A stretch of DNA of 64,000 nucleotides from Fasciolopsis buskii (taxonomy: Eukaryota; Platyhelminthes; Trematoda; Plagiorchiida; Fasciolidae): positions 38,375-102,374 of the forward strand of contig LUCM01005693.1 in the NCBI GenBank assembly GCA_008360955.1. The letters are read 5' to 3'. The notes under the pieces were generated by a model. That model saw only the letters and a list, made by a program, of their open reading frames with translations. It did not search any database and was not told where the DNA came from. Below are positions 3,760-64,000 of this stretch, piece after piece (position 1 is the stretch's first letter; the number at the start of each line of letters is the position of its first letter). The translations under genes were made by a program, and so were the position numbers.

Positions 3760-5027
3760 CTAAAGCAGAAAACTTCAACTGACTCCAGTGAGCAAGCCTA
3801 TCTCTGCATGCAATTTTGTGGTAGGGCTGCCTGTTGAGAACAAATCCCGTGACTTTGAACAGATGCACCAACCGTCGGATTATTTAGCATGTGTTGGCTA
3901 GAAGTGTCTTTGGAAATAGATCTGCAATCATTTTGTCAAGACAGAAAGCCATCGACTTTGAAAAACAGAGAATTTCAATCTACCAAATCTGGTTAGAAAC
4001 AGAACTGAGTCATGTCAGTTATTATAAAATGGTCGAACGGCCTCACGAAAAACCCGGATCTTTTTGCTTGGTTGCGAATTTCGTGTGAAAGTCATGCTGA
4101 CATTTCCGGACAAACTTGTGGTATAAGAGGCAGTTAGCAAATCGAAATATCATGGAATGTACGGAACAATATCCGTAGTTTTGCTTATATTTTGGGAAAA
4201 TTATGAATCACAAGTAAATCTCATGAGTTTATCTTTCGTAATATTTTTTTTGACATTCACGTCTGTGGCTAGATTTTTATGAAAATCAATATTTATGCCT
4301 TTTCACCCCAAGTCACCACCAATCAATAAAAAGTTATCTTATACATTCGCCACCAAAACATTACGTGAAATTATGAATCGCAAATGCATTTAAACTGGTC
4401 GCGGTGCGTTTCGCTATTCAATTTATTAATCATTCCACTTAATAATACTCAAAAATGCAGCACTACCGAAAAATCTATGGGTCACCAATAGTGGGTAACA
4501 GTTTTCTTTTGACAAGTCATCGAAATTTATTACCTGCTTGATTGAAGTTAGAATCTATTGGTTAGTAACGAAGTGATATCCAAACGTACGTCTTCTTTTC
4601 CATTGTACAGTAAAAATAACCAACTTTAAAGTTCTACATGTTGTTCTGAATTCTGCACGCATAAAAGCCCTCGACTCAGGCAGGATTCTTTTACCCATAC
4701 CAAAGTACCTGGTGGATTTTCTGATTATTTGTAAGAGCCATTTTCAGTTTTGTTGTATACTGAGACCGCTTCGAATGAATTTGTACCTTAAAAGCCGATT
4801 TCCGCTAAGCACGGTGGTCACTTATGAATTAATCCGTGGCCAAACTGTGTTCAGAGTTGTGGCTCATCTCAATATTTTCGTAATATTCGTGCATAACTTA
4901 GCACAGTGCAGTCCACTCCAGGAACCCGGCACTGGCAAAACGGCTTGTAGTAATTACCAGAAACTTAACCGTTAAAATTTCATGGAACGCATGGATTAAT
5001 TGATGGAACCTATCGTGTGATAAAAGC
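3760..5027. other. No recognisable gene or repeat
   Basis: Nothing beyond short random-looking open frames was seen between the possible exon at 3.6 kb and the retroposon pair at 5.0 kb. Confidence 0.45.
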
Positions 5028-5312
5028 GGTCAACTCGCCATCAAGAAACCATGGAAGCGCTGTACAGCTGCTTTATCCTTGTCAGAAATCATCAGTAGTG
5101 CATTTCCATGGCGCCCTAACTGGGATACGAACAAGTGACGAGCAATTTCCAGTCGAACGCCCTAGTCATTACGTTAACGGGTAGGTTCTGAAGGACTTGT
5201 TGAACTTCACCACATGATGTTGTACCTATCCGCCACTGATTTGCACGGCTACGGGCTGCTAAGTCATAGCAGCCGACCCCAACTGATGATATATAATCTT
5301 CTAATGCTAACA
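5028..5312 (-). mobile_element. Hammerhead/tRNA-like retroposon, copy A
   Basis: This is a minus-strand copy of the short retroposon described at 39,105-39,500. Read on the minus strand it contains the degraded tRNA-like head, the hammerhead core CTGATGA (complement of 5,089-5,095), a stem II hairpin and an intact palindrome ACAGCTGT-like helix III region. The conserved GAAA block is altered to AAAG, so the ribozyme should be inactive. Its 5' end faces the 5' end of copy B, giving a head-to-head inverted pair with almost no spacer. Confidence 0.75.
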
Positions 5313-5315
5313 CAC

Positions 5316-5690
5316 ACCAAGTAAGTAGGTTCTGCTTGTCATTTTCAAAGCCTTGATCGTATTTAGGCTACCTGCAGAAAGGTCATCAGTAGAGATCAAC
5401 TGCTTGCGCTAGCGGCCCTTGGCCGGGCGAATCAGTGACAGATAGGTGCAACATCATCATGTGGTGAAGCTCAACAGCGCCTTCCCAGCATGACAATGGC
5501 TAAGGCGTTCGACTCAGAATCGTTCGTCCCGGGTTCGTGTCCCAGTTCGGGCGCCGTCCATATGCATTGCTCATCATTCCTAACAAGGATGAAACAGCTC
5601 TACACTGCTTCCATTGTTTCTTGCTGGCGAGTTGACCGCTGATATCATAGGCTGAATTATATGATGAAAACGCTTAATTTTCTGCTACGA
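5316..5690 (+). mobile_element. Hammerhead/tRNA-like retroposon, copy B
   Basis: This is a near full-length plus-strand copy. It starts at ACCAAGTAAG, carries the 5' segment, then a tRNA-like head (about 5,480-5,552). The A-box region is disturbed, the anticodon-loop region contains CTCAGAA, and the B box is GGTTCGTGTCC. The hammerhead-like motif follows at 5,564-5,612. Its core reads CTCATCA instead of CTGATGA, while GAAA (5,591-5,594) is kept. It ends near CTGCTAC, a worn form of the CTACTACTAA end seen elsewhere. Confidence 0.8.
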
Positions 5691-8551: not shown

Positions 8552-8917
8552 GTAAGTAGTAATTTTTGTCTTCCTTTGAGATTTTGCAAATACTTACACA
8601 CTCACTGAATCACTTGGATCATTGACATGGAAATTCTAGTTTTCTGAAAACCAAACACAAAAAACAGTTAGTCATATGGATAAAGAGTCAGTTGAAACCT
8701 ATAGTCGAGCTTTCTATGTATATATTGTACGGTGAATTGGAGGCTTTCATATCAGGTATCAAATGGGACATTGTTTGCGTCGAGAACTTGCTTATTTCTG
8801 TCCATTGATTAACACTTTCAGTGCACGGTTTTAGGGAATTTGCAATCAGCATGAAATATTTTTTTATAGTAGAACAGTTCAGTGATTCAATAATTATAAT
8901 CAGTGAAGGATAGGCGT
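8552..8917. other. Possible intron start, no other feature
   Basis: AT-rich sequence follows the candidate donor. Nothing else was recognised. Confidence 0.35.
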
Positions 8918-9178
8918 GATATCATCATGTGGTTTATTTCAACAAACCGTTCAGAGCCTTCCCGGTAGCGTAATGGCTAAGGCGTTCGACTCACAATCGT
9001 TCGTCCCGGGTTCGTCCCGGGTTCGTGTCCCAGTTCGGGCGCCGTCCATATGCATTGCTCATCATTCCTAACAAGGATGAAACAGCTCTACACTGCTTCC
9101 ATCGTTTCTTTATCGTCAGTTCACCGATCATATCACATGGTCAATCATTTCATCAAAACATTCAATCTCCTACTACTA
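8918..9178 (+). mobile_element. Hammerhead/tRNA-like retroposon, copy C
   Basis: This copy is 5'-truncated but contains the complete tRNA-like head (from 8,961, A box region TAGCGTAATGGCTAAGG). The B-box region is duplicated: the string GTCCCGGGTTC occurs twice in a row near 9,002-9,025. The hammerhead motif at 9,052-9,096 has core CTCATCA (9,058-9,064) and GAAA (9,079-9,082). Its helix III palindrome is broken (ACAGCTCT). The copy runs without a break into copy D. Confidence 0.82.
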
Positions 9179-9408
9179 AAATGTACCAAGTAATCAAGCT
9201 GTGTAGGTCATATGCAAAGCGTTCGTCGTAGTTAGACTACCTGCACAGAAGTGATCTATGAGTAGGAGTCAATGGCTGTGAGCTAGCGGACAGTGAGCGT
9301 GCAAATCAGTGACGGATGGGTGCAATATTATCATGTGGTGAAGTTGAACAAACCGTTTGGAGCGTGCCCGGTAGCGTAATGGCTAAGGCGTTCGACTCAG
9401 AACCGTTA
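9179..9408 (+). mobile_element. Hammerhead/tRNA-like retroposon, copy D (3'-truncated)
   Basis: The second unit is head-to-tail with copy C. The distance between the two tRNA-like heads (8,961 and 9,367) is 406 bp. It contains the full 5' segment and the A-box half of the tRNA-like head, then stops inside the anticodon region at GACTCAGAACCG. It therefore has no hammerhead motif. Confidence 0.8.
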
Positions 9409-19619: not shown

Positions 19620-20099
19620 CCGGATTATCTGGCATGCTAGGACGCAGTCCATATGCTTCTTCCTTTGCAATTTGGACCAAATGCTCTCAGAGACACACTA
19701 GAGGTTCAGAATTATTCAATATCCGAATTGTTTGCAACTGCTACGATGGCGCTGATAAATATAGTTGGTCCCCACTTTGGCGCCCACCCCTACAAAGCGT
19801 TATCACTGAGACTGGTTGCAGATGTCTCCGATCTAGAAACAGATCCCGAATTCTGAGTTTCGCCCCAGAAGTTGCAACGTCTATCATTTTTGATGAAACC
19901 CAGAACAATGGAGGATCAAAGCAAAGTCTACAGGTGGACGAAGCAAGTTGCGTTTTGTAGTGACTTCGTTATTAGCCGGAAGTACTTCAAAATGTAACTC
20001 ATCCGATGCAATTACGCACATAACTGGTAGACTAACTCCACAAACGAATCTTCGATCACTCACCCACGTGGGCGCTGGCCTAAGAAACAAACTGTTACT

Positions 20100-20800
20100 C
20101 TTGTATTGCGTCCGATGCGACGAACAGTCATGTGAATTAATTATCCGATAGCGGAATACACTGCAAACAGCTTGACCTCAGACAATCTTTTGAGGTTTGT
20201 AAATCTGAGAAGCTGCATCTCTATCAGTGATGGTATCGGAAACGACATCTCGCACGCATTTCTATGGCTCGTTTGGCTTTTGTTAATCTCGCCCACCCAT
20301 GGCATTGTCGCAACACTGGGCTTTCCTTAAAATATAGAGTCAACAAAGTCGTAGTTCGGTAGGCATTTCTGTACAGATTCTGAACCTGGATAGGTCGACG
20401 AGTTCGATCACCGAAGTTTGCAATCACTTACGCAAGTACGGTCGCAGTATCAGATCAGTAATGACAAAGCACGAAGGAGAGTATTTGGAATTGATTGTGC
20501 GTTACTCAGAGGAGCTGTCTCAAAGCGCCCACTACGGTGACTAGGAAACATCTAGCGAATGTTCACCCACCATTTGTGGCAAAGTGCTCTGTCGGCGCAA
20601 AAAGAAAAGAATTGAAACGGTGGTGTGGCGGAAAACCAATAATTTGGAAAAAGAGCCTCAAAGGTTGACTTTCAGTTCATCGTATGCAGGGACGCATTGT
20701 CTGCCAGGTTGTTGTAATAATGACACTTTAAACCGCTGGTAGGAGAAACTGACAGATATGGATCGAAACCGGATTCAGTGGTATATGTGCATACAAAAAA
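20100..20800 (+). mobile_element. RTE LINE 3' fragment a (duplication copy 1)
   Basis: Reading across frames shows the RT thumb (RFVNLRSCIS, then after a frameshift ARISMARLAFVNL at about 20,255-20,295). The C-terminal domain follows (VFGIDCALLRGAVSKRPLR at about 20,490-20,545) and the polyprotein end (EKLTDMDRNRIQW at about 20,745-20,785). Several stops and at least one frameshift make it a pseudogene. The 3' end runs into an A/C-rich tail (about 20,795-20,832) against which the next fragment is placed. Confidence 0.75.
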
Positions 20801-20839
20801 CAAAGAAAAAACAAACAAATAACAACGACATTGACATCT

Positions 20840-21760
20840 GCTCAGACAGGAAGCTGTTCGACTTCGAATGTGCTGATGATGTTGAGGTACTGGGCAAAGA
20901 TTCAAGAAAGGTGCAGATGTTTCTCGATCATCTGAAGGATAGTGTAGGTATGTTTGGGATGCGTTTTTCTCATTCCAAGTGCAAAATGTTATTGCAGAAT
21001 GGCACTAAATCAAACCTGAGTATTGTTCTTGTTGGGAAACAACTGAATGAGGTGGATAGATTTAGTTGCTTGAATAGTTGTATCTCATCTGGTAGTCATG
21101 CGTCAGATGAGATGTCTTCGTCCATACAGAAGGCCCGATTGATATTCGCCAACTTGAAGCATTTGTGGCGTCGGCGTGACATCCGGTTATCATTCAAAGG
21201 TCGAGTATACACGCCAGCAGTGAGGTCATTATTGCTCCACGGCAAGGAAACACGGCCGTCGAGAGCAGAAGATATGAGGATGATTTTGGGTGTTTGAGTA
21301 CGTTGTCTTCATAATATTGGTGGAATATGGTGGGAGAATTTTGTGAGTAACTCAGAAGTTAGACATTAGGTACTGGGTATTAGGGTTCATTCTTTAGAAC
21401 AGTCACTGAATCAGAGTAGTTTGAGGTGGTTGGAACTTGTTTTGAGTAAATCACAGAACGACTGCCTTTCTCGTTACACACTGTTCTGTGAGACAGATAA
21501 TGGTTAGAAGACGGTTTGAAGTGGCCCGTTGATGACGTGGAAAAAAGTATGAAAACTTTAGCCAGTGGATTGACTCATGTAGGGGCAGTCAGAATACCGG
21601 GTTTGGATTCACGAAATCTCCTCTCTCCTAAGCGATGGCTGGAGGCAGTGATTGATATGGCTCAATGTAGCAGCCGATGTCGTTCTTGCATTCGAAACCT
21701 CACTTCTTCTGTTTAGTTTTTCAACTTCATATTTTGCCGTCGGCCTTTACTACTCTTCGA
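20840..21760 (+). mobile_element. RTE LINE 3' fragment b (duplication copy 1)
   Basis: This second 5'-truncated RTE copy lies directly behind fragment a in the same direction. It starts at the catalytic box region (FECADDVEVLG, YADD changed to CADD). It continues through the thumb (FSHSKCKMLLQNG, NLKHLWRRRDIRLSFKGRVY) to a TGA at 21,296-21,298. The frame then goes on with the C-terminal domain (SLRWL near 21,420; SGLTHVGAVRIPG near 21,560-21,600) to the real stop at 21,714-21,716. The open frame 20,758-21,297 is a read-through that joins the tail of fragment a to the start of fragment b. It is not a gene. Confidence 0.85.
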
Positions 21761-23650
21761 TCTTTCTTCTGTTTGAGCGGATGGTGCTGTGAGTTGGTAA
21801 CGAAAATCAGAGCACGTTGGCTCATGGTTAATGGTTGTGCAAAGTGAACAGAATACAGGCGTGACTTGAGCAAGACAGTGAAAACATCTGCTCATCAGAA
21901 TTTCAAGAGTATTTATATCTTTACACTTCGTTACTGAAATACTGACAGTTTCTAAAATAAAGTTGAGAAGATGGGTTTAACAATCCCATCATGGCTGAGA
22001 TTATCTATCTCATTCGTAAAGTAGATGACGGAGGAAAACCTTCCAAAGGAGAGACGGGTTACTTGTAAAATCTATGTAATCAAATCAAAAGTCTTACATG
22101 GCTAGAACGCTCCCTCAGAGTGAATATTGTTACAAGAGCGTCTGCTTCATTTGATCATCCCAATGGTTCCTTACGTTTAAACCTTACATTCAACCTTACA
22201 TTCAAACCGAACTTGTAATGTATGATGCCGCCTGAAGAGAGAGAATATAGTAACACGAAACTTACAAAATCATCGGAGTTAGTTGAACGATTTTGAAAAA
22301 TCTTGAGGAAATACGCTAGTGGCACTTGTCATTCGACTAATAGCCTTCGGAATCGCTACTGCTGCTAGCGGCGGGAAACCTTGGTTTTAAATTATTTATC
22401 ACCAATCCTTCTTCCTATACTACGGCATTATTCCACGTTTCTTTCCCCGATGATTGAACATATAAAAATAGGTTAATGAGATGGGAAATTGATAAACAAA
22501 TCACCTGAACAAAAAGCCCGACCATTTTTTTGCGTTCTGTACATCTGCTATCTGCTATGCAGTGTACAAAACGTCAGACACAAAAAAGCAACTTATTTTC
22601 TCTTCTTGATTTTTATTGTCATGTTTTCTACCACAGTATTTTTTCGCAGCATTGCCACACGTCGCCCGGTGAGGAATAAAGTGCGTGATGTCACAAAATA
22701 TACAAGTATCTGCAGTTATTGTGGTTGAATTGGATAGTGCTATCACTATGGCTCTTGATTTCAGCTGCGAATCTGTGCCGAATCGGTGTAGGTTCATCGA
22801 GATATTGACACATTGGTGAGCTAAAAATCTTGATCTGTAATAGCTTCATGAAGCTCCTTGCTACTCCATACGCTTTTGTCATCTGGCAGCTTCCACTTTC
22901 AGAATCAACGGTATTTTGTGAATTCTTCAAACCATAAATTCACAATCCGTATTCTATTGGAGATTTTGTTGGTCGAATGCAAACCGGTTACCTATTTTAG
23001 CAAATCCCTGCCAATACAACCGAACTCCCTTCTTGTTTGGTCTAAAAATTAAGCGTATTTTCAATAACCTAATAACTGCCCTCCTTGGGATGACTAAAAC
23101 TGCTCTTGTTCAGCCCCAAAGATTTCTGGCATTCCTTCCGTCTGCACTTGGTTGCCCGCTACACGGGGTGAAAACGTGTAGGCGAAGTCGGCTTGATGAT
23201 CGGAAGCGTGGTGGATTGCGAGCATAAACTCAAGTAAAACATTTGGTCATCACTGTTTCCCCTTGGATCGACCATGCCTGCGATTTGCGGTCCGCTTTTA
23301 CGTACGGTTAAATACATGCGATTATGTACTCTGCATACTTCCGTGTGCAGATTATGTGTCATCGGAATGATGGAGAAGGATAAAAATGTTGGTTAAAAAA
23401 GGACAGAAAGAAACAATACAGAGAGCATACTACACATGCTAGTTACTTCATTCTCCATCTCCACATCTTTGGTAATCCATCGAGATTCATAATTCTTTTG
23501 TGGATTCGGTACTACCTCGTTGATCAAACCGAGATAGAGCGTTGACTTGGGGAACCCTACACCGAGCTTTGAGCAAGCTATCTAACCCACCAGGCAGTAA
23601 GACCACCTGAGGGTCACGTAATCTACTGAGGACCGGCAACTGACAGCTAA
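21761..23650. other. Duplicated block, no gene recognised
   Basis: This part of the duplication has no recognisable coding sequence. The 335-bp piece around 23,080-23,397 is the one that appears twice around the N in the second copy. Confidence 0.45.
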
Positions 23651-30189: not shown

Positions 30190-33100
30190 CTTCGTTTTGC
30201 TTAAAATTAAGCATATGCGAACAAATTCCCTTTCTTATATCCAACATGTCTCTTCTGTCTCAAACCCAATCTCTTCGCCCCTTCTGCCTATCCATAGTGT
30301 CCCCATTGATAACACGCCCGATACTCGCAACGGTTTATTGTCAAGTAGTGTAGTAGGTGGTTTTCAGTCTGTTAGCTCACATTTTCTCAAGCCTCGTCAG
30401 CCTTTGAATCTTGGTTCCTTCAATGTGCCCACTTTAATGCAGGCTGGCCAACAGGCCTGTTTGGCTCTGACAGTGGACTGACTCACGCTCGATTGATATC
30501 TGCTGCATGAGTGAAACACGAATTCAGGATTCGAGTAGAGTAATTCAACTGACTGGGCCTAATGTCTCGTCAAGATATTTCCTTCATAGTTCAGGAGACT
30601 AAGCAGCTCAAGCTGTGGGTCAACGCGGTGTAGGGATAGTCTTGAGTGAGAAGGCTGAAGCAGCCCTTTTAGACTGGATCCCAGTCAACAGTCGCTTGTG
30701 TGCCGCGGGACTGCATGGATCAGTCGGCGTCCGAAAGGATAGTAATGTTAGGCGTAGTTTATTTGTTATCTCAGTATACGCTCCAAAAGACTGCAGCACT
30801 TACATGGGGAAGGACGAGTTTTACGATGACCTGGTCACCCTTGTTCGGAAGAGCAAAGGCTCTGACATTATAGTGGTGGCAGGTGACTTCATTGCACAAG
30901 TTAGAAAACAGAATGCATCGGAATCCTGTTTAGGTGCGCGATGCGCCTTGCCGGCACAGCGAACAGACAACGGGGAAAGACCTCTCCAATTCTGTGCAGA
31001 CAACCACTTATTCTAATCTAGTACGAATTTCGGACACAGTTCGCGTCGCACAGCGACATGGCATTCTAACTCGACAGGTACTCTGAGTCAGATTGACCAT
31101 ATCGCAGTTGGTTACCGTTGGCGCGGTTCTTTCCAGAACTGTAGATCACACTAGACCACGTACGTCGAATCGGACCATGCGTTAGTTTTAATGCGATTTT
31201 TGCTGAAGCTCAATAGCCATCGACGTAGGCCACAAACCCGATTGGCTGTCGAACGTTTGTCTGATTCGGCTGTTCGAAACAGCTACGAACATAAACTATC
31301 GGAGGAATTAAGAACTTCGATGAGCAGCAATATAGACGATCAGTGGGATCAAATTAAGCAGGCGATGCATTTGGCAGCAAATTTAGCTTGTGGTCCTAGA
31401 TCTAGCGTTCATCAAAGACAATGGATCTCGCAAGCGTCACTAAGTCTAATGGAGCAAAATCGCCAGCTGTCTAACTGCAAGAAAGTGAATAAGATGCGTC
31501 GGCAGTTGCAGCATCAGTTGACGATAAGCCTGAGGAATGACCACGAAAACTGGTGGGTTAAGGTAGCCGAAGAGATGGAAGTGGCGTCCGCTTCAGGTAA
31601 CAGTCAAAGACTGTTTAAGCTTATACGTGACAGCGGTGGGCGGCGAATGTCGGTTAGTGAAGTCCTGTGCGATAGGACTGGAGAGCTCATCCATGGTAGA
31701 CAGGATTGACTGGACCGTTGGGCAGAGCATTTCAAGGATCAGTTTAGCTGGCCATACGCTATCGCATCTAGTCCGACGCCTGGAGCTGTGAATCCTTGGA
31801 AGATGTCACTTGATCCCCCAACGGAAGTGGAAGTGGGGTCGAATATTCGGCTTCTGAAGAGGGGAAAAGCTGCCGGCCCTGACGAACTTCCCTCAGTTCT
31901 TTTCAAATTGGGTGGAGAAGTGCTGATGAAATCACTTACCTCCTTGCATTGTAATATTTAAAACGAGGAGCGCATCCCGCTATCGTGGGGTAAGTCACTG
32001 ATTATACCCATTTTCAAGAAGGACACTCGATGTGACTGCAGCAATCATCGTGGGATTAGTTTAATTCCGATAGTCACTAAGGTGTTAGTTTCGATAATGC
32101 TGCGCCGTTTGACACCGATTCGCGAGAGTAATATCCGCGACCAACAGACCGGATTTCGTCCAGGTTGAAGTTGCATCGACCAGATATTCACTCTTTGACA
32201 GATACTCGAAACGCGCCACACGCACCGGAACCCTACAATCGTGGTCTTCCTGGACTTGAAAGGTGCTTTCGACTCCGTGGATCAACCAGCACTACTCAGT
32301 GCTCCCCACCGAAAGGGTATGCCAACGAAGTTTGTGAACCTGTTGCGAGCATTGTACTCGCATACCTATGGTTGCGTTAGGGTATACGGTGAACTGTCAC
32401 GTTCATTCGAAACAACTAGCGGCGTTCGACAAGAGTGTCCCATCTCCCCATTCTTGTTCAACTTCGTCATGGACGAGGTGATGGAAGATGTTGTGGGAGG
32501 TCTCCGGGATGTAGGAGTCGAACTAAGAAGTGGAGGAAAGCTATGTGACCTAGATTACGCAGACGACGTCGTGCGCCTGTTCGAGTCTGCGGACCGTGCA
32601 AAACGGGCACTAGTAGACTGTCGAGATCGGTTGCTCGGTTTGGCATGTGCTTTGCACGTTCAAAGTGCAAAGTGGTGTTAAAAAATTGGACGACAGTAAC
32701 GCCGAACTTGATACTGGATGGAGAGGAACTTACGACTGTGGACCGTTTCACCTAGCTTGTTAGCTGCGTGTCCAACGATGGTAACTCGGGAGTGAAGGTA
32801 AATATGCGTATATCGAAGGCTCGGGCAGCTTACGCCGGATTGAAGCACTTGTGGCGTCGGTCTGATATTTCGCTGAAGTTGAAAGGTCGTGTGTACTGTG
32901 CTGCAGTGCGTTCAGTTCTGTTGTACGGTTGCGAGACGTGGAGTATGCGTGTGGACGATGTTCGTCGGCTAGAGGTATTCTACCATCGATGTCTTCGTAG
33001 TATGGCTAGGATTGGATGGAGTGACCGGGTGAGTACTCTAAAGGTTGGGAATCTGGTATTGGGTGCCACTTCTGAGAATAGCTTGTTTCAGCGTATGAAA

Positions 33101-33600
33101 CATAGTAGCCTGCGCTGGTTGGGTCAAGTGTTGCGTATGACGAACACTCGTCTACCATACCGTGCCCTATTTTGTGTTCCTCCCAAGGAGTGAAAGAGGC
33201 CATATGGAGATCAACAGATGACGTGGGAACGTGGAATGAGAAAATGTACAGCGAACTTGGGTAAAGTAGGTGTCTCACGCCTTCGTGGTTGGGGTCCGAA
33301 AGACTCGTCAACTAGCTGGCTGGAGACATTGATGTATATGGCAGTGAACAGTGAACAGTAGCGATCGTGTTGTCATTTTCTATCGAATCAGAATGATTGA
33401 AAGCACGTGCGTTTGTACAGTTAGACTGTGTTCCGTGTGTTGGCTGCAGGAGCAACTTATCTTTTCCCGCTTGTGTAGGTCCACTCCCTGTTCCCGTTGG
33501 ATATTCACTTCTTTTTATATAAACGTGTAACTCTGGGGAAAGGCAGCGGTCAGTGAGGCTTCCCTTGCTATTTAACGCTGAACGATGATGATGATGCTAT
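30190..33600 (+). mobile_element. RTE-clade LINE, nearly complete, inactive
   Basis: One non-LTR element holds all main parts in order. Endonuclease start: LNLGSFNVPTLMQAGQQ near 30,405-30,455. Endonuclease body 30,615-31,016: LLDWIPVNSRLCAAGL, then VAGDFIAQV where family members have GDFNAQVG, so the catalytic Asn is replaced. Linker 31,191-31,709. RT 31,830-32,680: GKAAGPDELPS, FRPG, VVFLDLKGAFDSVDQ, GVRQECPISPFLFNF, and an intact YADD at 32,556-32,567. Thumb and C-terminal domain 32,768-33,360: LKHLWRRSDISLKLKGRVY, SSLRWLGQVLRM, LRGWGPKDSSTSWLETL. The 3' end carries GATGATGATGATG at 33,584-33,597. Stops (for example near 30,480, 31,708, 31,960, 32,166) and frameshifts make it a pseudoelement. 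Confidence 0.92.
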
Positions 33601-38530: not shown

Positions 38531-38670
38531 CAGGAAGTAGTATCTGGATTCGCAAATAAAATTTGCCCAGGAGCACACGACCGGTTTCGCGGTTATTGTC
38601 GCTCGTCAGGTATGCGTACCCGATGCTCTCTTGTCCAAACATCCACATACTTGTACCCTCCGGATTGATG

Positions 38671-38996
38671 GATATTTCTTACCAGAATCGAATCTGTAGC
38701 ATGAGGAGTGTGCATGGAAGCTGTTCGTCGAAGATTCTACAGAAGAACGAGAACAGTGATTGGTTGATAATTGTTTGTCAGTTTGGCTGAGCGAACGTTA
38801 GGAACGAGGGCAGAATGCTCCTGCTTCTATATATACCTACGTATATTCTGGGGCATTCTGTTCTCGTTCCTAAGGTTGGCTCAGCCCAACTCACAAAGAA
38901 TTACCAACGAATCACAGTTGTGATTCTTCTGTGGACTTTTCGACGAGCAGCTTCCATGCACACTCCTCATGCTACAGATTCGATTCTGGTGAGAAA

Positions 38997-39000
<4 letters not shown>
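38671..39000. mobile_element. Foldback (MITE-like) inverted repeat
   Basis: The left arm starts at GATATTTCTTACCAGAATCG and the right arm ends with its complement (CGATTCTGGTGAGAAATTCA). The arms stay alignable all the way to the centre near 38,836, for example GTTAGGAACGAGG against CTCGTTCCTAAGG. Each arm is about 160 bp with scattered mismatches and a central loop of about 12 bp (ATACCTACGTAT). There is no coding capacity. An (AT)n run begins directly at the right end. A TA-targeting MITE is one explanation; an inverted duplication of a local repeat is another. Confidence 0.8.
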
Positions 39001-39104: not shown

Positions 39105-39500
39105 ATACCATGTAGCCAAGTTCTGTAGGTCATGTCCAAAGCCTTCGTCGCATTTAGGCTACCTGCAGAGAAGTTGCCAGTCAATGGGGGTCGATTGGTG
39201 TGAGCTAGCAGAGAGTAACCGCGCAAATCAGTGGCGGATATGTGCAATATTGTCACGTGGTGAAGTTCAACAAACCGTTCAGAGCCTGCCCGGTAGCGTA
39301 ATGGCTAAGGCGTTCGACTCACAATCCTTCGTCCCGGGTTCGCATCCCAGTTCGGGCACGGCGGATATGCACTGCTCATCATTCCTAACAATGATGAAAC
39401 AGCTGTACAGTGCTTCCATGGTTTCTTAGCGGCGAGTTGAGCGATGAAATCACATGGTAAATTATTTCATAAAAACATTCAATCTCCTACTACTAACACA
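39105..39500 (+). mobile_element. Hammerhead/tRNA-like retroposon, copy E (full length)
   Basis: This is the reference copy. It begins TACCATGTAG and carries a 5' segment of about 185 bp conserved in copies B, D and F. Next is a tRNA-like head (39,288-39,357): acceptor arms GCCCGG and TTCGGGC, A box TAGCGTAATGGCTAAGG, anticodon loop CTCACAA, B box GGTTCGCATCC. The hammerhead motif is at 39,369-39,413. The unit ends CTCCTACTACTAA. The layout (tRNA-like pol III head plus hammerhead in a short retroposon) is that of the schistosome Smalpha family. The conserved segment before the head is unusual for a SINE. Here stem I is perfect (GCACTG with CAGTGC) and helix III is the palindrome ACAGCTGT, but the core reads CTCATCA. 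Confidence 0.85.
39288..39357 (+). promoter_or_regulatory. tRNA-like head with pol III A and B boxes
   Basis: The 70-bp region matches tRNA organisation, with acceptor halves GCCCGGT and GTTCGGGC, A box, B box GGTTCGCATCC and an anticodon-position CAC. The anticodon stem has only three good pairs, so it is a tRNA relic inside the retroposon and not a functional tRNA gene. It could act as an internal RNA polymerase III promoter. Confidence 0.7.
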
Positions 39501-42379: not shown

Positions 42380-43990
42380 CTGAGCACTTTATGAAAGGTT
42401 ACTCAGGAAATCGACCGAAACACGGTCACGGCTTTTCAAGGTGCGCGGTAAGTATGGGACCGTGGAGGTCTTATAGATATTGATCCTAGAGGGTATGGAA
42501 TAAAAAGTGGATCGTGTTGAAATCTGTGAGTGGGGCTTTGAAAGATCGTAGTGCAGAGAATGCATGGGATCCGAAAGAAGTCTGTGAGCCGATTCCTCAC
42601 GTGTTGATAAGTGCTGACCACATAGATTGAAGGACATTCCAGTTAGTGGTGTGAAAGACACGGCTAATAATTGATAGTCCCGGCGAACAATTTTACGATC
42701 TGTTTTAAGTAAACCTGGAAATATAACTGGGGAACAGTAAAGAAGGATTAGAGAAACACATTGGTAGGCAAATCGGGAAGCGATGCTTTATTTCACCTTG
42801 TAGTGTCGAAGCTTCCTGATTTGAAATGACAACCATCGGAGACTCTTCACACAGGTAGAAATGTGAGAAGTTCACTTCAGATTTTTGTCAATAGCAACTT
42901 CTTGATATTTCACAGAACCAACCCTGGTAAGAGATTTTGAGTTGATGGAAGCCGTTTCGGATGGCTAGGCCGACCGAGGGAGACATATAGATGTGTTGGG
43001 ATTTAAACCAGCTCGTGCAGATAAATCATAAACAGAAGATAGGTTATTGGAAAAACTCTGAAAATCATCGTTGTTCGAAACGACTTGGGACAGGGCAACA
43101 TCATCAGCATGCTTACACAGATGACAAGAGGAACTAGCAGATAAGTCACTGATGTAAGCAGAAAAGAGGAACGGTGAAAGAACAGCACCCTGTAGCACTC
43201 CTGAGTTGTTAATCAACGGTTTCGAAACTTTACCGTCCATTCGTGTGCACTGGGTTCGGTTAGTAAATTCATCAGACAGCCATACTAATAACGGACTGGG
43301 ATAACCAAATGTTTGCAGTTTGTGGAGTGGACGAGACCGTGGGACTGAGTCAAATGCCGATGAGTAGTCTAGGGAGGTGCAACGCACAGATTTCATTGAT
43401 GTGTTTAAGGACTCACAAATGTGGTGAATGAGGGAGGCGACAGCGTCCAAAGTGGACCTGCTAGATATATAGGAAAACTGAAAAGAATCGTCAGGGGCGA
43501 CACATAGAAGAACACAGACGCTTAAGTAAAACACCCTATAACAGTTTAAGACCAGAGGTTAAGGCGATGGGGCGAAAACGTTTTGCTAAAGCAGTAGAAC
43601 AGTTAGATTTAGGGATGGGAATGCTGGTGACGGGTCTCCAACAGTCAGCGATGGAAGAAGAGATTAATGGTGAGTTAATCAGAGGCGTAAATGCATCTGT
43701 CAGAGTCACAGCACCGCGCCTTAAAATAACTGAGGACAGACTGAGAAGACCAATCCCTGCGATAATTTTAGTGGTGTGCAGAAGGTCGAGCACCTATTCT
43801 CCAAGAAACTTGTAACCGTCCTATCAACACCCTCACCAAATACGACCGGAGTATAGGTGGAAAGATGGATGAAAGTACGAGTGATGCTGTCGACATCCGC
43901 AGTTTTCGTATGCTTCTTCTTCTTCCCACACAACGGTCAGTTGCCTTGCTATAGGAATCGATCGTTGTTACCACTCAAGAGTTGGTTGGC
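42380..43990 (-). mobile_element. CR1/Jockey-like LINE remnant
   Basis: Minus-strand RT blocks appear in order. LILRRGAVTLTDAFTPLIN-like and ADCWRPVTSIPIPKS with FRPIALTS fall in 43,793-43,540. SSRSTLDAVASL, SLDYSSAFDSVPR, FTNRTQCTRMDGK and GVLQGAVLSPFLFSAYISDL fall in 43,480-43,150. The catalytic box reads KHADDVALS at 43,100-43,111 (Y of YADD changed to H). The C-terminal region goes on to a stop at about 42,389 (DRVSVDFLSNLS). The endonuclease is not seen, so the copy is 5'-truncated or decayed. Frame changes near 43,535 and 42,965 make it a pseudoelement. It belongs to a different LINE clade from the RTE copies. Confidence 0.85.
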
Positions 43991-44648: not shown

Positions 44649-45306
44649 TACGACGGATCTCTATACCACGTGTAGTTTCATTGCAAGCCTGCATCCGAAG
44701 ACACTCACTCAGTACGGCCAGTTGACGCCTGCTTGCCCGGCTACAAACCCTGAAGGCACGTCTGCTTTCTCTCGTTTAAAACTTTGTGAAATCTGTGTGA
44801 GAATTCTTTTACTCGGACAGTCACTTCCAGATTATCTGGCATGCTAGGACGCAGTCCATATGCTTCTTCCTTTGCAATTTGGACCAAATGCTCTCAGAGA
44901 CACACTAGAGGTTCAGAATTATTCAATATCCGAATTGTTTGCAACTGCTACGATGGCGCTGATAAATATAGTTGGTCCCCACTTTGGCGCCCACCCCTAC
45001 AAAGCGTTATCACTGAGACTGGTTGCAGATGTCTCCGATCTAGAAACAGATCCCGAATTCTGAGTTTCGCCCCAGAAGTTGCAACGTCTATCATTTTTGA
45101 TGAAACCCAGAACAATGGAGGATCAAAGCAAAGTCTACAGGTGGACGAAGCAAGTTGCGTTTTGTAGTGACTTCGTTATTAGCCGGAAGTACTTCAAAAT
45201 GTAACTCATCCGATGCAATTACGCACATAACTGGTAGACTAACTCCACAAACGAATCTTCGATCACTCACCCACGTGGGCGCTGGCCTAAGAAACAAACT
45301 GTTACT

Positions 45307-46007
45307 CTTGTATTGCGTCCGATGCGACGAACAGTCATGTGAATTAATTATCCGATAGCGGAATACACTGCAAACAGCTTGACCTCAGACAATCTTTTGA
45401 GGTTTGTAAATCTGAGAAGCTGCATCTCTATCAGTGATGGTATCGGAAACGACATCTCGCACGCATTTCTATGGCTCGTTTGGCTTTTGTTAATCTCGCC
45501 CACCCATGGCATTGTCGCAACACTGGGCTTTCCTTAAAATATAGAGTCAACAAAGTCGTAGTTCGGTAGGCATTTCTGTACAGATTCTGAACCTGGATAG
45601 GTCGACGAGTTCGATCACCGAAGTTTGCAATCACTTACGCAAGTACGGTCGCAGTATCAGATCAGTAATGACAAAGCACGAAGGAGAGTATTTGGAATTG
45701 ATTGTGCGTTACTCAGAGGAGCTGTCTCAAAGCGCCCACTACGGTGACTAGGAAACATCTAGCGAATGTTCACCCACCATTTGTGGCAAAGTGCTCTGTC
45801 GGCGCAAAAAGAAAAGAATTGAAACGGTGGTGTGGCGGAAAACCAATAATTTGGAAAAAGAGCCTCAAAGGTTGACTTTCAGTTCATCGTATGCAGGGAC
45901 GCATTGTCTGCCAGGTTGTTGTAATAATGACACTTTAAACCGCTGGTAGGAGAAACTGACAGATATGGATCGAAACCGGATTCAGTGGTATATGTGCATA
46001 CAAAAAA
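45307..46007 (+). mobile_element. RTE LINE 3' fragment a (duplication copy 2)
   Basis: Identical in content to 20,100-20,800: RT thumb, C-terminal domain and polyprotein end with the same stops and frameshift. The shared lesions show the block was copied after the LINE had decayed. Confidence 0.75.
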
Positions 46008-46046
46008 CAAAGAAAAAACAAACAAATAACAACGACATTGACATCT

Positions 46047-46967
46047 GCTCAGACAGGAAGCTGTTCGACTTCGAATGTGCTGATGATGTTGAGGTACTGG
46101 GCAAAGATTCAAGAAAGGTGCAGATGTTTCTCGATCATCTGAAGGATAGTGTAGGTATGTTTGGGATGCGTTTTTCTCATTCCAAGTGCAAAATGTTATT
46201 GCAGAATGGCACTAAATCAAACCTGAGTATTGTTCTTGTTGGGAAACAACTGAATGAGGTGGATAGATTTAGTTGCTTGAATAGTTGTATCTCATCTGGT
46301 AGTCATGCGTCAGATGAGATGTCTTCGTCCATACAGAAGGCCCGATTGATATTCGCCAACTTGAAGCATTTGTGGCGTCGGCGTGACATCCGGTTATCAT
46401 TCAAAGGTCGAGTATACACGCCAGCAGTGAGGTCATTATTGCTCCACGGCAAGGAAACACAGCCGTCGAGAGCAGAAGATATGAGGATGATTTTGGGTGT
46501 TTGAGTACGTTGTCTTCATAATATTGGTGGAATATGGTGGGAGAATTTTGTGAGTAACTCAGAAGTTAGACATTAGGTACTGGGTATTAGGGTTCATTCT
46601 TTAGAACAGTCACTGAATCAGAGTAGTTTGAGGTGGTTGGAACTTGTTTTGAGTAAATCACAGAACGACTGCCTTTCTCGTTACACACTGTTCTGTGAGA
46701 CAGATAATGGTTAGAAGACGGTTTGAAGTGGCCCGTTGATGACGTGGAAAAAAGTATGAAAACTTTAGCCAGTGGATTGACTCATGTAGGGGCAGTCAGA
46801 ATACCGGGTTTGGATTCACGAAATCTCCTCTCTCCTAAGCGATGGCTGGAGGCAGTGATTGATATGGCTCAATGTAGCAGCCGATGTCGTTCTTGCATTC
46901 GAAACCTCACTTCTTCTGTTTAGTTTTTCAACTTCATATTTTGCCGTCGGCCTTTACTACTCTTCGA
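46047..46967 (+). mobile_element. RTE LINE 3' fragment b (duplication copy 2)
   Basis: Same as 20,840-21,760, with one amino-acid difference caused by the substitution at 46,459 (KETRP against KETQP). It has the same CADD box, the same stop at 46,503-46,505 and the same final stop near 46,921-46,923. Confidence 0.85.
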
Positions 46968-48245
46968 TCTTTCTTCTGTTTGAGCGGATGGTGCTGTGAG
47001 TTGGTAACGAAAATCAGAGCACGTTGGCTCATGGTTAATGGTTGTGCAAAGTGAACAGAATACAGGCGTGACTTGAGCAAGACAGTGAAAACATCTGCTC
47101 ATCAGAATTTCAAGAGTATTTATATCTTTACACTTCGTTACTGAAATACTGACAGTTTCTAAAATAAAGTTGAGAAGATGGGTTTAACAATCCCATCATG
47201 GCTGAGATTATCTATCTCATTCGTAAAGTAGATGACGGAGGAAAACCTTCCAAAGGAGAGACGGGTTACTTGTAAAATCTATGTAATCAAATCAAAAGTC
47301 TTACATGGCTAGAACGCTCCCTCAGAGTGAATATTGTTACAAGAGCGTCTGCTTCATTTGATCATCCCAATGGTTCCTTACGTTTAAACCTTACATTCAA
47401 CCTTACATTCAAACCGAACTTGTAATGTATGATGCCGCCTGAAGAGAGAGAATATAGTAACAAGAAACTTACAAAATCATCGGAGTTAGTTGAACGATTT
47501 TGAAAAATCTTGAGGAAATACGCTAGTGGCACTTGTCATTCGACTAATAGCCTTCGGAATCGCTACTGCTGCTAGCGGCGGGAAACCTTGGTGTTAAATT
47601 ATTTATCACCAATCTTCTTCCTATACTACGGCATTATTCACGTTTCTTTTCCCGATGAATTGACATATAAAAATAGGTTAATGAGATGGAAATTGATAAA
47701 CAAATCACCTACAAAAAGCCGACCATTTTTGGTTCTGTACATCTGCTATCTGCTATGCAGTGTACAAAACGTCAGACACAAAAAAGCAATTATTTTCTCT
47801 TCTTGATTTTTATTGTCAGTTTTCTACCACAGTATTTTTCGAGCATGCACACTCGCCCGGTGGAGGAATAAAGATGCGTGATTCACAAAAATACGAAGTA
47901 TCCTGCAGTTTTGCTGGTTGAATGGATAGTGCTATCACTATGGGCTCTTGATTCAGCTGGAATCTGTGACGAATCGGTGTATGTTCATCGAGATATTGAC
48001 ACATTGTGAGCTAAAATCTTGATCTGTAATAGTTCATGAGCTCCTTGCTACTCCATACGCTTATTGTCATCTGTCAGCTGTCACTTTCAGAATCAACGGT
48101 ATTTTGTGAATTCTCAAACCATAATTCACAATCACGTATTCTATGGAGATTTTGTTGGTCGAATGCAAACGGTTACCTATTTTTAGCAAATCCCGCAATA
48201 CAACCGAACTCCCTTCTTGTTTGGTCTAAAAATTAACGTATTTTC
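46968..48245. other. Duplicated block without genes; indel-rich from 47,590
   Basis: Up to 47,590 it matches copy 1 base for base with one substitution. Beyond that, short frames differ from those of copy 1 only because of single-base indels. Confidence 0.6.
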
Positions 48246-48916
48246 ATACTATACTGCCCTCCCTTGGGATGACTAAAACTGCTCTTGTTCAGCCCCAAAG
48301 ATTTCTGGCATTCCTTTCGTCTGCACTTGGTTGCCCGCTACACGGGGTGAAAACGTGTAGGCGAAGTCGGCTTGATGATCGGAAGCGTGGTGGATTGCGA
48401 GCATAAACTCAAGTAAAACATTTGGTCATCACTGTTTCCCCTTGGATCGACCATGCCTGCGATTTGCGGTCCGCTTTTACGTACGGTTAAATACATGCGA
48501 TTATGTACTCTGCATACTTCCGTGTGCAGATTATGTGTCATCGGAATGATGGAGAAGGATAAAAATGTTGGTTAAAAAAGNATACTATACTGCCCTCCCT
48601 TGGGATGACTAAAACTGCTCTTGTTCAGCCCCAAAGATTTCTGGCATTCCTTCCGTCTGCACTTGGTTGCCCGCTACACGGGGTGAAAACGTGTAGGCGA
48701 AGTCGGCTTGATGATCGGAAGCGTGGTGGATTGCGAGCATAAACTCAAGTAAAACATTTGGTCATCACTGTTTCCCCTTGGATCGACCATGCCTGCGATT
48801 TGCGGTCCGCTTTTACGTACGGTTAAATACATGCGATTATGTACTCTGCATACTTCCGTGTGCAGATTATGTGTCATCGGAATGATGGAGAAGGATAAAA
48901 ATGTTGGTTAAAAAAG
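48246..48916. repeat. 335-bp direct repeat flanking a single N
   Basis: 48,246-48,580 and 48,582-48,916 are the same sequence with one visible difference (CCTTTCG against CCTTCCG near 48,320). The N at 48,581 sits exactly at the junction. The corresponding part of copy 1 contains the piece only once. This is what an unmerged overlap between two contigs looks like. Confidence 0.93.
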
Positions 48917-57480: not shown

Positions 57481-58147
57481 AACAAAAATGATATTCATGA
57501 CTATTAAACAGTTTTCGGAACGGGCATCACACTCATCAAATGTCTTAAAGAAGACCAAATTAGTCTTCACTGCAACTAGTGCCCGCACTTAGACCAAAGC
57601 GGCTATATATCTCCATAGACGAGAAATACAATTAAATAACTCACTTCCTGATATTCTATTTCAATCGTGGTGCCCATGGACGTTTGGAGGAGGTTCTACA
57701 CTTCCAGGTGTTAAAATGCCTCAAAACTTTCGAGTTATTCAGTTATCTGTAAATCACTGGATAAATTTCTGTTACCTAGCCTGTATATGGGAACAATGTA
57801 ATGGGCATACGCCAGAGCTGGCAGAGTTCACTATACGAAGGAGGGGGAACCGGCAATCATGGCCCGGAAACTTGAAGTAGTAGCCGGTCATATACAATTT
57901 CAACAAATTAAGTGCGATAACGAAAGAATTGGCGTCTACCATCAAAGTGGAATTTGGATCTGGAAATCCAGGCTCTGATGTTTTTGGAGTAAGAGGTCCT
58001 CATACCACTTGGCCACTGCCGGTCCAAAGATGGTATTGCTAAGTAAGTTTTCTCTGGTATATATCAAGGGATTTGATTTCCCAATTCGGAAGTGTTGGTA
58101 GGAGGAGATCCGACGATTCGCAACATTATTGATCATGTTATATCAAA
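57481..58147. other. No recognisable gene or repeat
   Basis: Nothing was recognised between the LINE tail and the next retroposon. Confidence 0.4.
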
Positions 58148-58470
58148 GCTCAGCTGTTCATTAAGAAACCATGGCAGCAGTGAACAGCTGATTCACTCAT
58201 GTTATGAACCATCAGTAGCTCATATTCACCGCATCCGAAGGAATGCTAGTCCGATGTGAACTACTACGAATCATGCGCCTTAGCCATTACGCTGCCGGGA
58301 AATACTCCCAACTCTCTTTTGAACTTCACCACACGATGGTGTACCCATCTGCTACTGATTCTTAAAGCCAGGAACCCCTGGCGCACAGTAGTTGACTCCC
58401 ACTGATAGGCTACTACCGTGCAAATAGCCTAAGTACCACGAAGGCTTTATACTTTTCATAATTTGTTACA
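58148..58470 (-). mobile_element. Hammerhead/tRNA-like retroposon, copy F
   Basis: A nearly full-length minus-strand copy. Read on that strand it has the 5' segment (complement of about 58,330-58,460), the tRNA-like head with CGTAATGGCTAAGGCGC (complement of about 58,277-58,293), and the ribozyme region. The core is CTGATGG (complement of 58,209-58,215), GAAA is changed to GAAT, and helix III reads TCAGCTGT. It is older and more diverged than copies B, C and E. Confidence 0.75.
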
Positions 58471-61877: not shown

Positions 61878-63859
61878 AGACAATATCGATGAGAGATAAA
61901 AGGATGAGCTTTAAGGTTTCAATCATAAAAATCATTTGCTTTCACAGGGCTAGATCATTATTGTCTAGACAAATCTAGGCGATACACTGCTTTCCGCCAA
62001 GAATAACCAAAAAGGCAACTGCTTTTGAAATGTGGGATTTCTATTTTTCTGAGGTTGTCCCAGAAACTGAATAAATTTATTCACATTGCATGCATCAATG
62101 TCTGTGAAATATTTTCTTAAATTGGTTAAGGAGCGCACCTTAGCCAATGTTGATATGACGACCAAAAGGTCACAGCTTTTCACTTGATTGAACAGCTGGA
62201 AAATCAATATACCCGAGTCAGCATTGTCCTCTTCGAATCTCACTAAATCAACGCTACCAAGTATTTGAATTTATCTGCCGGTTGAGACCGGAAAGATCAC
62301 GTGACAGAAGCATAGGTCAGTGCAAGTGAACTGACTATAATATTCACATAAATCGTGTTAATTTATCAACTGTCCCCAATTAGCCCCATTCTGTCCGTTC
62401 CATAATAATCCACTTATTACGTTTCCGGGTTGACTAGTCACTATGTCTGTGATAACCAAGCAGTGCAACTTTGATATGGCAAGTTTTGAGACGGTTTGTG
62501 ACGTTCGCAGTTCCGCACACAAATATACTCAAGGTCACAAAGTCGCAGTCCTTGTCTTGTAAACTGAGCAGTTTATGTATTCATCCAGTGCGCGCTAAGA
62601 CAGGACTTTCCGAGATGCAACTTATCTTTGTTTAAAATAAATACTTCTGTTTGACTGAACTAGTGCTGAGAAGCAAGATGCGAAAACCTTAGACTGTTGT
62701 GGTGGCAATGTGAGAATATCATCGGACTGTAAGACAGGCAAGTCGACAGACAACGAACAAAGATAACTGTCACGAATCCTCATTGGAACGTAGAGGCCGC
62801 TAAAGGATGGATTTAATCCGCTGTGTTTGATTTTCCTGTCGCGTGTTGTGTAAGTTTACTTACACCTGCGTCTTATATTCGCAGATGACCCATTAGTTCA
62901 ACCTAATAGCCATCACTTGGATAGCAAATACAGCAAGGTTATCACTTAAGTAGATAGCATCTAAGTGCTTAAGTGAATGCAAAATTTTGAACCAATTCTC
63001 AAAATCCCAGCCAGACTAAAAAAGCTCGTACGAAGAAGAGCAATGAGCGATTCATAACTTTGTGCATCTGAGTGCCTCAACTCAACTGTGTGTTGTGTGT
63101 TAACCTTGAAACACCGGTCAGGCACGATTGTTTATTGAATGTAATGAGGTCGTGTGTACTTTGCCGGTGGGCACAGAGAACAAGAGAAATCGACAGTTTT
63201 TAATGTGAATAACAAATCAGTAGCCGTGATTGTGAGAACTGAATAGTAGCAGTATACGAAGTCTGAAGGTTGTATTAGGCCGGTACTCCATTTTCATGCA
63301 CTGTATGTTAGTAGATATGGTTACGTTCCGCATTCGCTGCCGAAGTTTCTAAATTAAAGACTCATCATGGTTACAAGGGAAACGATTTATAATTGCTTCT
63401 CAGCCCAATTATGTGCAGGCCGAAAATGTTGGCATGCACCCAGCTTATTCTTATTCAACAATCATTCAATGCCCGGTGGGCATACCGACAGGAATTTAAA
63501 AATGAATTTATGTTAATCAGCATTCATCAGGCCTCCGGATAGCTTTGTGTCACTGTAGGTGCAAATCCTAATCTCGGCCTAGATTTACATTTTGTATTAT
63601 ATTGGCATGTGCAAATATCGACGGTTGAATATTATTCAACATGTTTTGTACATTGCCCCGAAATCGTCAGAAGATTTGTAGACAGCGACTTTAAGCAGTG
63701 ACCTAGGTGGATCCTGCCAGTGTCGATCAGGCGAACTGTGGATAACAATGAACGGGCAAGTGGATCATTACTGCGCCGATCTCGTCGTGACCTGATAAAT
63801 TAAAAGACCACATGCTGAAACCGATTACGTTCCTCCAAGTGCATATCATATATACTGGT
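61878..63859. other. No recognisable gene or repeat
   Basis: A 92-codon minus-strand frame at 61,965-62,243 is not recognised and lacks clear splice sites. Nothing else was seen. Confidence 0.4.
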
Positions 63860-64000
63860 GGATATGCAGTGCTGATGATTCCTAACAAGGATGAAACAGC
63901 TGTACAGTGCTTCCATGGTTTCTTTATGGTGAGTTGAGTGATGATATCACATGGTGAATTATTTCATGTAAACATTCAATCTCCTACTACTAAAATGTAT
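63860..64000 (+). mobile_element. Hammerhead/tRNA-like retroposon, copy I (5'-truncated)
   Basis: The ribozyme and tail part of the retroposon continue to the window edge, where the sequence reads CTCCTACTACTAAAATGTAT, the junction type seen between units C and D. The tRNA-like head is absent. It holds the best-preserved hammerhead core of the window. Confidence 0.85.
63861..63915 (+). ncRNA. Hammerhead ribozyme motif (type I, palindromic helix III)
   Basis: Core elements in order: stem I strand GCAGTG (63,866-63,871), CTGATGA (63,872-63,878), a stem II hairpin TTCCT-AACA-AGGAT (63,879-63,892), and GAAA (63,893-63,896). Then comes the palindrome ACAGCTGT (63,896-63,903), cleavage-site base A at 63,904 (GUA triplet), and second stem I strand CAGTGC (63,905-63,910). 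Stem I has one mismatch, and the stem II base pair next to the core is U-U. Helix III is self-complementary without a loop, so efficient cleavage would need two copies pairing, as described for the small dimeric hammerheads of animal satellite and retroposon RNAs. All invariant core bases are present. Confidence 0.72.

Follow-up and report, generated by a model that had tools for sequence, protein, structure and literature searches.

Metazoan non-LTR retrozymes have been described as tandem units of a few hundred base pairs (150-450 bp) with a type I hammerhead ribozyme in each, a GC content below 50% and target duplications longer than 4 bp (PMC7229834, PMC7761336). A weak stem III with dimeric cleavage has been described for amphibian and Penelope-type hammerheads, and the minimal hammerheads of Penelope-like elements, whose stem III is self-complementary, are expected to act as dimers (PMC7761336). 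The same accounts left open how the ribozyme circles of animals return to the genome and named Penelope-like elements or LINEs as candidates (PMC7229834, PMC7761336). Among schistosomes, the elements Smalpha and Sjalpha are tRNA-derived and carry a type I hammerhead (PMC2770079, PMC8490949). Platyhelminths are mentioned in general for hammerheads in PMC7229834; hammerheads in flukes other than schistosomes did not appear among the matches listed in a literature search, and a search of the literature with sequence strings matched a schistosome-type string only.

The window analysed here, a stretch of 64,000 nucleotides from the trematode Fasciolopsis buskii, is the end of a 102-kb contig in a 703-Mb assembly. 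A hammerhead-like motif was found in register at positions 63857-63916 of its plus strand (Table 1), and the observation of the motif at this place is confirmed. Its CUGANGA...GAAA...NUH core elements follow each other in order and stem I opens toward the flanks, as in type I hammerheads. An earlier reading of the letters (hereafter the sequence-only reading) had named these parts in this order and place, and they were found as it described them, with an intact core. However, its account of the stems needed correction: stem I of the window copy has a G-G mismatch at 63869 and so 5/6 pairs, stem II has a U-U at its base, and stem III (ACA-GC-UGU) encloses a 2-nt loop.

Table 1. Coordinates of the hammerhead-like motif and of related copies in the 64,000-nt window
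Feature	Position	Strand	Remark
Stem I outer 5' strand, GUGG	63858..63861	+	pairs with CCAU at 63913-63916
Stem I inner 5' strand, GCAGUG	63866..63871	+	GCACUG in array units; one pair lost through G at 63869
Core CUGAUGA (CTGATGA in DNA)	63872..63878	+	
Stem II, UUCC-UAACAA-GGAU	63879..63892	+	three pairs and U-U at base
Core GAA (G12 A13 A14)	63893..63895	+	GAAA is 63893-63896
Stem III region, palindrome ACAGCUGU	63896..63903	+	2-nt loop as monomer; 8 bp between two copies
Predicted cleavage after A63904	63904..63905	+	GUA triplet 63902-63904; predicted from sequence
Stem I inner 3' strand, CAGUGC	63905..63910	+	
Stem I outer 3' strand, CCAU	63913..63916	+	
Young copy, unit 1-144, stops at contig end	63857..64000	+	one difference from array unit, C to G at 63869
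Part of 3'-end zone, unit 110-144	63966..64000	+	most sampled family insertions terminate in unit 110-121 or 139-154
Old one-unit copy, unit 122 to 134	5295..5688	+	core CTCATCA (dead)
Old copy, unit 216 to 95	5016..5287	-	G12 changed to A
Old 1.3-unit copy, unit 262 to 362	8898..9407	+	core CTCATCA (dead)
Old one-unit copy, unit 153 to 137	39117..39496	+	tRNA-like part 39288-39358; core CTCATCA (dead)
Old copy, unit 174 to 106	58125..58448	-	core broken

The last 144 bases of the window matched many places in the genome, mostly at 95-100% identity; at least 84 matches were listed (1,959 first-look candidates, 40 scored), many of them spaced 392 bp. From these 84, 38 stretches were read (20 + 18, including the end of the window itself). 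They revealed an element built of a 392-nt unit, occurring in arrays of one to at least seven units, such as those with 6.3 laps (locus L021) and at least 7 laps (L089). The hammerhead occupies unit positions 1-62, with the predicted cleavage site at 48|49 after GUA, and is followed by a body to about 145, a linker to about 321 and a tRNA-like part at 322-392, after which the next hammerhead begins. The older copies of the window are permuted pieces of this unit, and the copy at its end differs from it by one base, so that a single young copy, broken off, stands beside several old ones in the window. The sequence-only reading had proposed a short retroposon with a tRNA-like head. These data uphold the presence of a hammerhead-type motif within a mobile element that has a tRNA-like promoter; the short tRNA-headed retroposon is replaced by a circularly permuted tandem unit of 392 nt in which the tRNA-like part is internal, present in the family unit and in other copies of the window, but not attached to the terminal copy within the window.

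The tRNA-like part lies directly upstream of the hammerhead and comprises an A box, TAGCGTAATGG, at unit 327 and a B box, GGTTCGCGTCC, with one mismatch, at unit 370. It scored 22.5-23.8 bits with the tRNA model RF00005 (cut-off 29), and ARAGORN found no tRNA in the sequence. As TTTT is absent within the 392-nt unit, Pol III could transcribe across several units. Smalpha and Sjalpha likewise combine a type I hammerhead with Pol III boxes of tRNA origin (PMC2770079, PMC8490949), and the Smalpha analogy drawn by the sequence-only reading is a fair one, as is the difference that it saw from the GUC-cleaving type, GUA standing in place of GUC. In a comparison of features and of the hammerhead, the element also departs from Smalpha in its palindromic stem III, whose loop has 2 nt, in having U-U or G-U at the stem II base, and in its stem I letters. 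The S. mansoni-type hammerhead of a selection pool (PMC7118274) has an identical core, and its stem II is of equal size (4 + 6-nt loop + 4).

With metazoan retrozymes, as described in PMC7229834 and PMC7761336, the element shares tandem units within the 150-450 bp range (arrays of 392 bp), each with a type I hammerhead, a GC content below 50% (0.472) and target duplications longer than 4 bp (9-15 bp in 17/42 gap-free composites, see below). The U-U at the base of stem II is also shared with one axolotl retrozyme motif, a hammerhead reported as active (22% in one hour; PMC7229834). In contrast with metazoan retrozymes as described in these two papers, the present element has a tRNA-like Pol III promoter adjoining the hammerhead, a fixed zone of 3' ends and head-to-head arms within one target duplication. 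Metazoan non-LTR retrozymes are further characterised by the lack of LTRs, of a primer-binding site and of a polypurine tract, and by expression as circular RNA; for the 392-nt element, such circles are predicted from the genome sequence. The self-complementary stem III recalls the minimal hammerheads of Penelope-like elements (PMC7761336); stem I is longer, with an internal loop, the motif lies in a unit of 392 nt, and no Penelope reverse transcriptase was linked to it. By its anatomy, the element fits a non-LTR retrozyme with a Smalpha-like promoter, putatively copied from circular or multimeric RNA, and it is probably a non-autonomous retroelement of the retrozyme kind that moves by the ribozyme and circle cycle proposed below. 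Searches of viral and bacterial collections gave 11 places matching a 17-mer, a bare count, and other searches of these collections gave no match.

A resemblance to hammerheads could arise by chance in a conserved SINE body. A descriptor (core, stem I with at least 5/6 pairs, stem II with at least 3, and stem III), drawn up after the window copy had been viewed, matched both strands of the window only at 63857-63916 and 38609 (-), and gave one match in 300 simulated 64-kb double-stranded windows (first-order Markov), or about 0.003 expected per window; a chance motif was rejected on this count. Moreover, the array unit has a complementary pair at the sole mismatch of the window copy, bringing stem I to 6/6. 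Profile scores lend the chance origin some support, as the copies stay under Rfam's cut-off. At gathering score, Rfam found nothing in the whole window, and the motif at 63857-63916 was absent from the whole-window results at E<=10; in a local scan of 701 nt it scored 18.2 bits with RF02275 (E 0.12). A covariance-model search across copies, proposed by the sequence-only reading, did yield matches: in the four loci that were scanned, 17 places scored 26.7 bits with RF00163, below its gathering score of 34 bits. At least 8 places were listed when the genome was searched with RF00163 (111,921 first-look candidates, 73 scored), seven of these 8 being diverged copies of the 392-nt family with 33-33.9 bits. 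There, GUCC (six copies, sharing this arm with the S. mansoni-type hammerhead of PMC7118274) or AUCC (L065) replaces UUCC, and the base of stem II is paired by G-U or A-U. These replacements also speak against chance, although picking by covariance model favours paired copies, so that they are no test of pairing. Taken together, a chance origin seems very improbable.

Compensatory changes in stems I and II, which the sequence-only reading had set as its own touchstone, were absent: over 15 copies, mostly decaying and therefore a poor test, 82.9% of cells were paired against 83.2% after shuffling. Among 82 arms, again mostly from decaying copies, double changes at hammerhead pairs left one paired and three unpaired. 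Because the Rfam scores and covariation fall short in this way, and cleavage and circles are predicted, the element is worded here as of retrozyme type and its motif as hammerhead-like.

The intactness of the motif was compared between two samples. Loci L021-L057 were chosen for likeness to unit 1-144, hence to the window copy, and are a biased set for core intactness in which 5' ends falling in unit 50-144 are under-sampled; the linker-chosen set comprised 30 loci, 17 of them new and 16 counted for core and joint-repeat tallies (L078 overlaps L077). An intact core in at least one lap was found in 36/37 likeness-chosen loci and 12/16 linker-chosen loci, the complete motif in 36/37 versus 9/16, and a perfect stem I (GCACUG/CAGUGC) in 79/85 and 31/42 laps, respectively. 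In the unselected contig of the window, where identity to the unit ranged from 70 to 99%, one of the nine copies with the full hammerhead span had an intact core. The other copies that the sequence-only reading had aligned with the terminal one do align, nhmmer included, but the intact core is confined, among these nine, to the copy at 63857. Several old copies share motif changes in which G5, G8 and G46 are replaced by C, and core G5 (unit 18) was changed in 11 arms.

Such copies bear on another possibility, namely that the element is mobilised like any ordinary SINE, or through multimeric Pol III RNA that stays uncut, its hammerhead being an ancestral leftover with no present role and its arrays linear multimers or products of template jumping. 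Dead-core copies with changes in common must have been amplified, and at locus L097 both arms of one insertion carry G5 to C, so that a ribozyme-dead RNA served as template. The lack of covariation in stems I and II points the same way, as do unlike laps within one array (L027, L031, L092, L094, L089, L095), which are easier to reconcile with template switching or a multimeric RNA than with a single monomer circle. Against this, the youngest copies mostly have a complete motif and a perfect stem I (the likeness-picked ones being biased), and L021 contains six full laps joined seamlessly, with zero differences. Arm lengths also show an excess at one lap, and insertions do not start at the tRNA-like part (see below). 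A simple SINE copy was rejected since the tRNA-like head is internal to the unit and, unlike in a canonical tRNA-derived SINE, 5' ends are spread round the unit. On balance, this origin without ribozyme function appears unlikely. An identical GAT insertion at unit 286 was also observed in a single lap of two arrays (lap 2 of L089 and lap 3 of L095), which suggests a shared multimeric source.

A dimeric mode of cleavage would blunt the evidence from dead copies. The 8-nt palindrome ACAGCUGU can pair with that of a neighbouring unit over 8 bp (-11.1 kcal/mol), and the minimum-energy fold of the monomer differs from the hammerhead in that the core CUG pairs with CAG. Given this palindromic stem III, cleavage probably needs two hammerheads. 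In a dimeric hammerhead, the core of one unit cuts the site of the other; dead units could thus be cut by live neighbours, which could explain L097. A weak stem III is shared with metazoan retrozymes as described, where it favours dimeric cleavage in some animals.

Insertion ends were mapped on pieces of at least 60 nt, and the tallies excluded ends adjoining N and pieces of less than 80% identity. Most 3' ends fell into two narrow groups, at unit 110-121 and 139-154; 50/56 lay in unit 91-168 and, for the linker-chosen set, 26/30 in unit 100-160. On the other hand, 5' ends were variable, with 23/50 between unit 360 and 27. This stretch covers the hammerhead and the tRNA-like part, whose structure may halt the enzyme. 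Neither the 50 5' ends of the first set nor the 29 of the second included one within three bases of unit 49, the cleavage site, which makes a linear cleaved monomer unlikely as the usual template, with the proviso that such single-lap pieces were under-sampled.

Insertions often consisted of two head-to-head arms. Initial scans of the joints for repeats of at least 6 letters found them in 18/48 and 9/21 composites and none in 30 and 12; as some of these words were letters of the element (L025, L077, L078), a controlled count was preferred, restricted to the 42 of 66 composites that were gap-free and allowing an overlap of 6 letters with the element edge. Direct repeats of at least 9 bp (range 9-15 bp) then occurred in 17/42 composites, against a mean of 0.6 (maximum 4) with swapped flanks, and repeats of at least 12 bp in 9/42, against a mean of 0.26 (maximum 3); in 25/42, no joint repeat of at least 9 bp was present. 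When only letters strictly outside the aligned element were counted, joint repeats amounted to 2/42, the alignments extending a few bases into the repeat. In 11 of 20 head-to-head composites, a repeat of at least 9 bp lay beyond the two arms, implying that both arms there came from one event. Multi-lap arms were likewise enclosed by joint repeats, with 1.84 + 1.79 laps at L030, 1.46 at L036, 1.35 at L037 and 3.69 at L095 (9-bp repeat).

These joints also bear on a third view of the arrays, as satellite DNA that unequal crossing-over or rolling-circle replication of DNA has expanded, the dispersed copies being fragments. Several arrays are indeed homogeneous within their locus, with variants common to their laps (L022, L023, L025). 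However, direct repeats flank entire multi-lap and head-to-head composites far above the swapped controls, and 3' ends in one zone with variable 5' ends are the mark of reverse transcription at the target. Satellite formation by crossing-over, already disfavoured, was rejected on the joint repeats, and the satellite view as a whole is very improbable.

Arm lengths and end tracking were analysed on 76 of 112 arms, those below 80% identity or adjoining N being dropped. Lengths peaked at one lap, 15 of the 40 arms of at least 0.6 lap falling within 0.9-1.1 (p 0.003, with bins chosen post hoc). Such a peak is predicted if copying of a circle halts at its own start, and equally if the template is a linear RNA whose 5' end lies in the zone. 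The 5' ends did not track their own 3' ends (10/40 within 16 nt versus 9.0 permuted, p 0.39), a result compatible with a linear RNA ending in that zone.

For the favoured retrozyme cycle, we infer Pol III use, cleavage, ligation, a circular template and the origin of the reverse transcriptase as follows. Tandem units would be transcribed by Pol III read-through, adjoining hammerheads would pair through their palindromes ACAGCUGU and cut as dimers after GUA (unit 48|49), and a cellular ligase would make circles of 392 nt. A reverse transcriptase from another element would prime in the zone at unit 110-154 at a staggered target break and circle the template for anything from part of a lap to several laps; it would at times do so on both sides of the break, and direct repeats of 9-15 bp would be left. 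What the sequence itself displays is the unit with its arrays, boxes and motif, the narrow zone of 3' ends, the variable 5' ends, the head-to-head arms and, for part of the composites, the joint repeats. The joint-repeat control left the odds of this mechanism unchanged. A more specific and more tentative proposal, for which the odds fall somewhat short of even, is that the insertions are the footprint left in the genome when RNA circles made by the hammerhead undergo target-primed reverse transcription, in many cases from both ends of a staggered break and over anything from part of a lap to at least seven laps, and that the 392-nt RNA may keep a viroid-like rod fold of body against linker. 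If true, this footprint would show the integration route of metazoan retrozymes. Many insertions of this family are young and have joints that can be read, with a narrow start zone, repeats at the joints, arms of several laps and head-to-head twins. Genome data can therefore be used to test the circle model, the priming mode and the enzyme. The family also combines a Smalpha-like promoter with the way of life of a retrozyme.

The rod fold is treated as a lead. In the circular minimum-energy fold, the body is predicted to pair with the linker in a branched rod of -123.9 kcal/mol (z -3.1, 60 shuffles). Over 82 arms, double changes preserved pairing in 23/45 cases against 84/275 over eight slid versions of the fold (Fisher p 0.006, the slid sets not being mutually independent). 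Shuffling of labels gave a mean of 3.5 and a maximum of 9 in 300, and a maximum of 10 in 300 in a second run, figures that exaggerate the contrast because the copies are related; the two best rod helices (9/10) were selected post hoc. RNAalifold, run on 13 diverged rows with a majority row, had zero pairs in common with the rod fold.

It is worth noting that G to C was the commonest change among the 112 arms (177 versus 92 C to G), 46 of the 177 lying at units 386 and 241. Copies with such an excess, for example that at 8898-9407 of the window, were changed at unit positions 1, 4, 5, 18, 21, 46, 51, 75, 82, 87, 112, 241 and 386. On the contig, mismatches between G and C made up 290/1,234 in family copies versus 23/251 in other repeats, the pairs not being independent. 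A reading of this excess as hypermutation is weakened by one copy in which G has become C in the body while C has become G in the linker, and by some G/C changes that are helix flips; most of the changes lack such an explanation.

Other hammerheads were observed besides the 392-nt family. A minimal hammerhead of the kind described for Penelope-like elements lies at 38556-38627 (-), with CUGACGA, GAAACCGGUC and no stem III loop. At 31.9 bits with RF02275 (E 4.5e-4), it was the sole hammerhead listed for the whole window at E<=10, and it scores higher than the terminal motif, which the sequence-only reading had ranked as the best candidate for a functional RNA in the window. It adjoins a large imperfect inverted repeat (38674-38997, 83% over 330 nt) with AT microsatellites on both sides, and a second copy, 90% alike over 144 nt, occurs near 192 (-) in L062. 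Another hammerhead family was met near position 1507 of L058, just downstream of a B-box-like stretch, with a palindromic stem III, ACUCGAGU, cleavage triplet GUC and an RF00163 score of 35.4 bits, above the cut-off.

Open frames resembling fragments of reverse-transcriptase genes were seen by eye at 13988-14299 (-), 20743-21297, 31155-33193, 42965-43558 (-) and 45950-46504, and a protein search of 32199-32681 gave 17 matches, PF00078. These frames, fluke-like in look, are possible sources of the enzyme. The window also contains a 3.8-kb duplication (19614-23401 and 44821-48580, 98.2% identical), with a near-perfect tandem pair of 335 bp at the end of its second copy (48246-48916).
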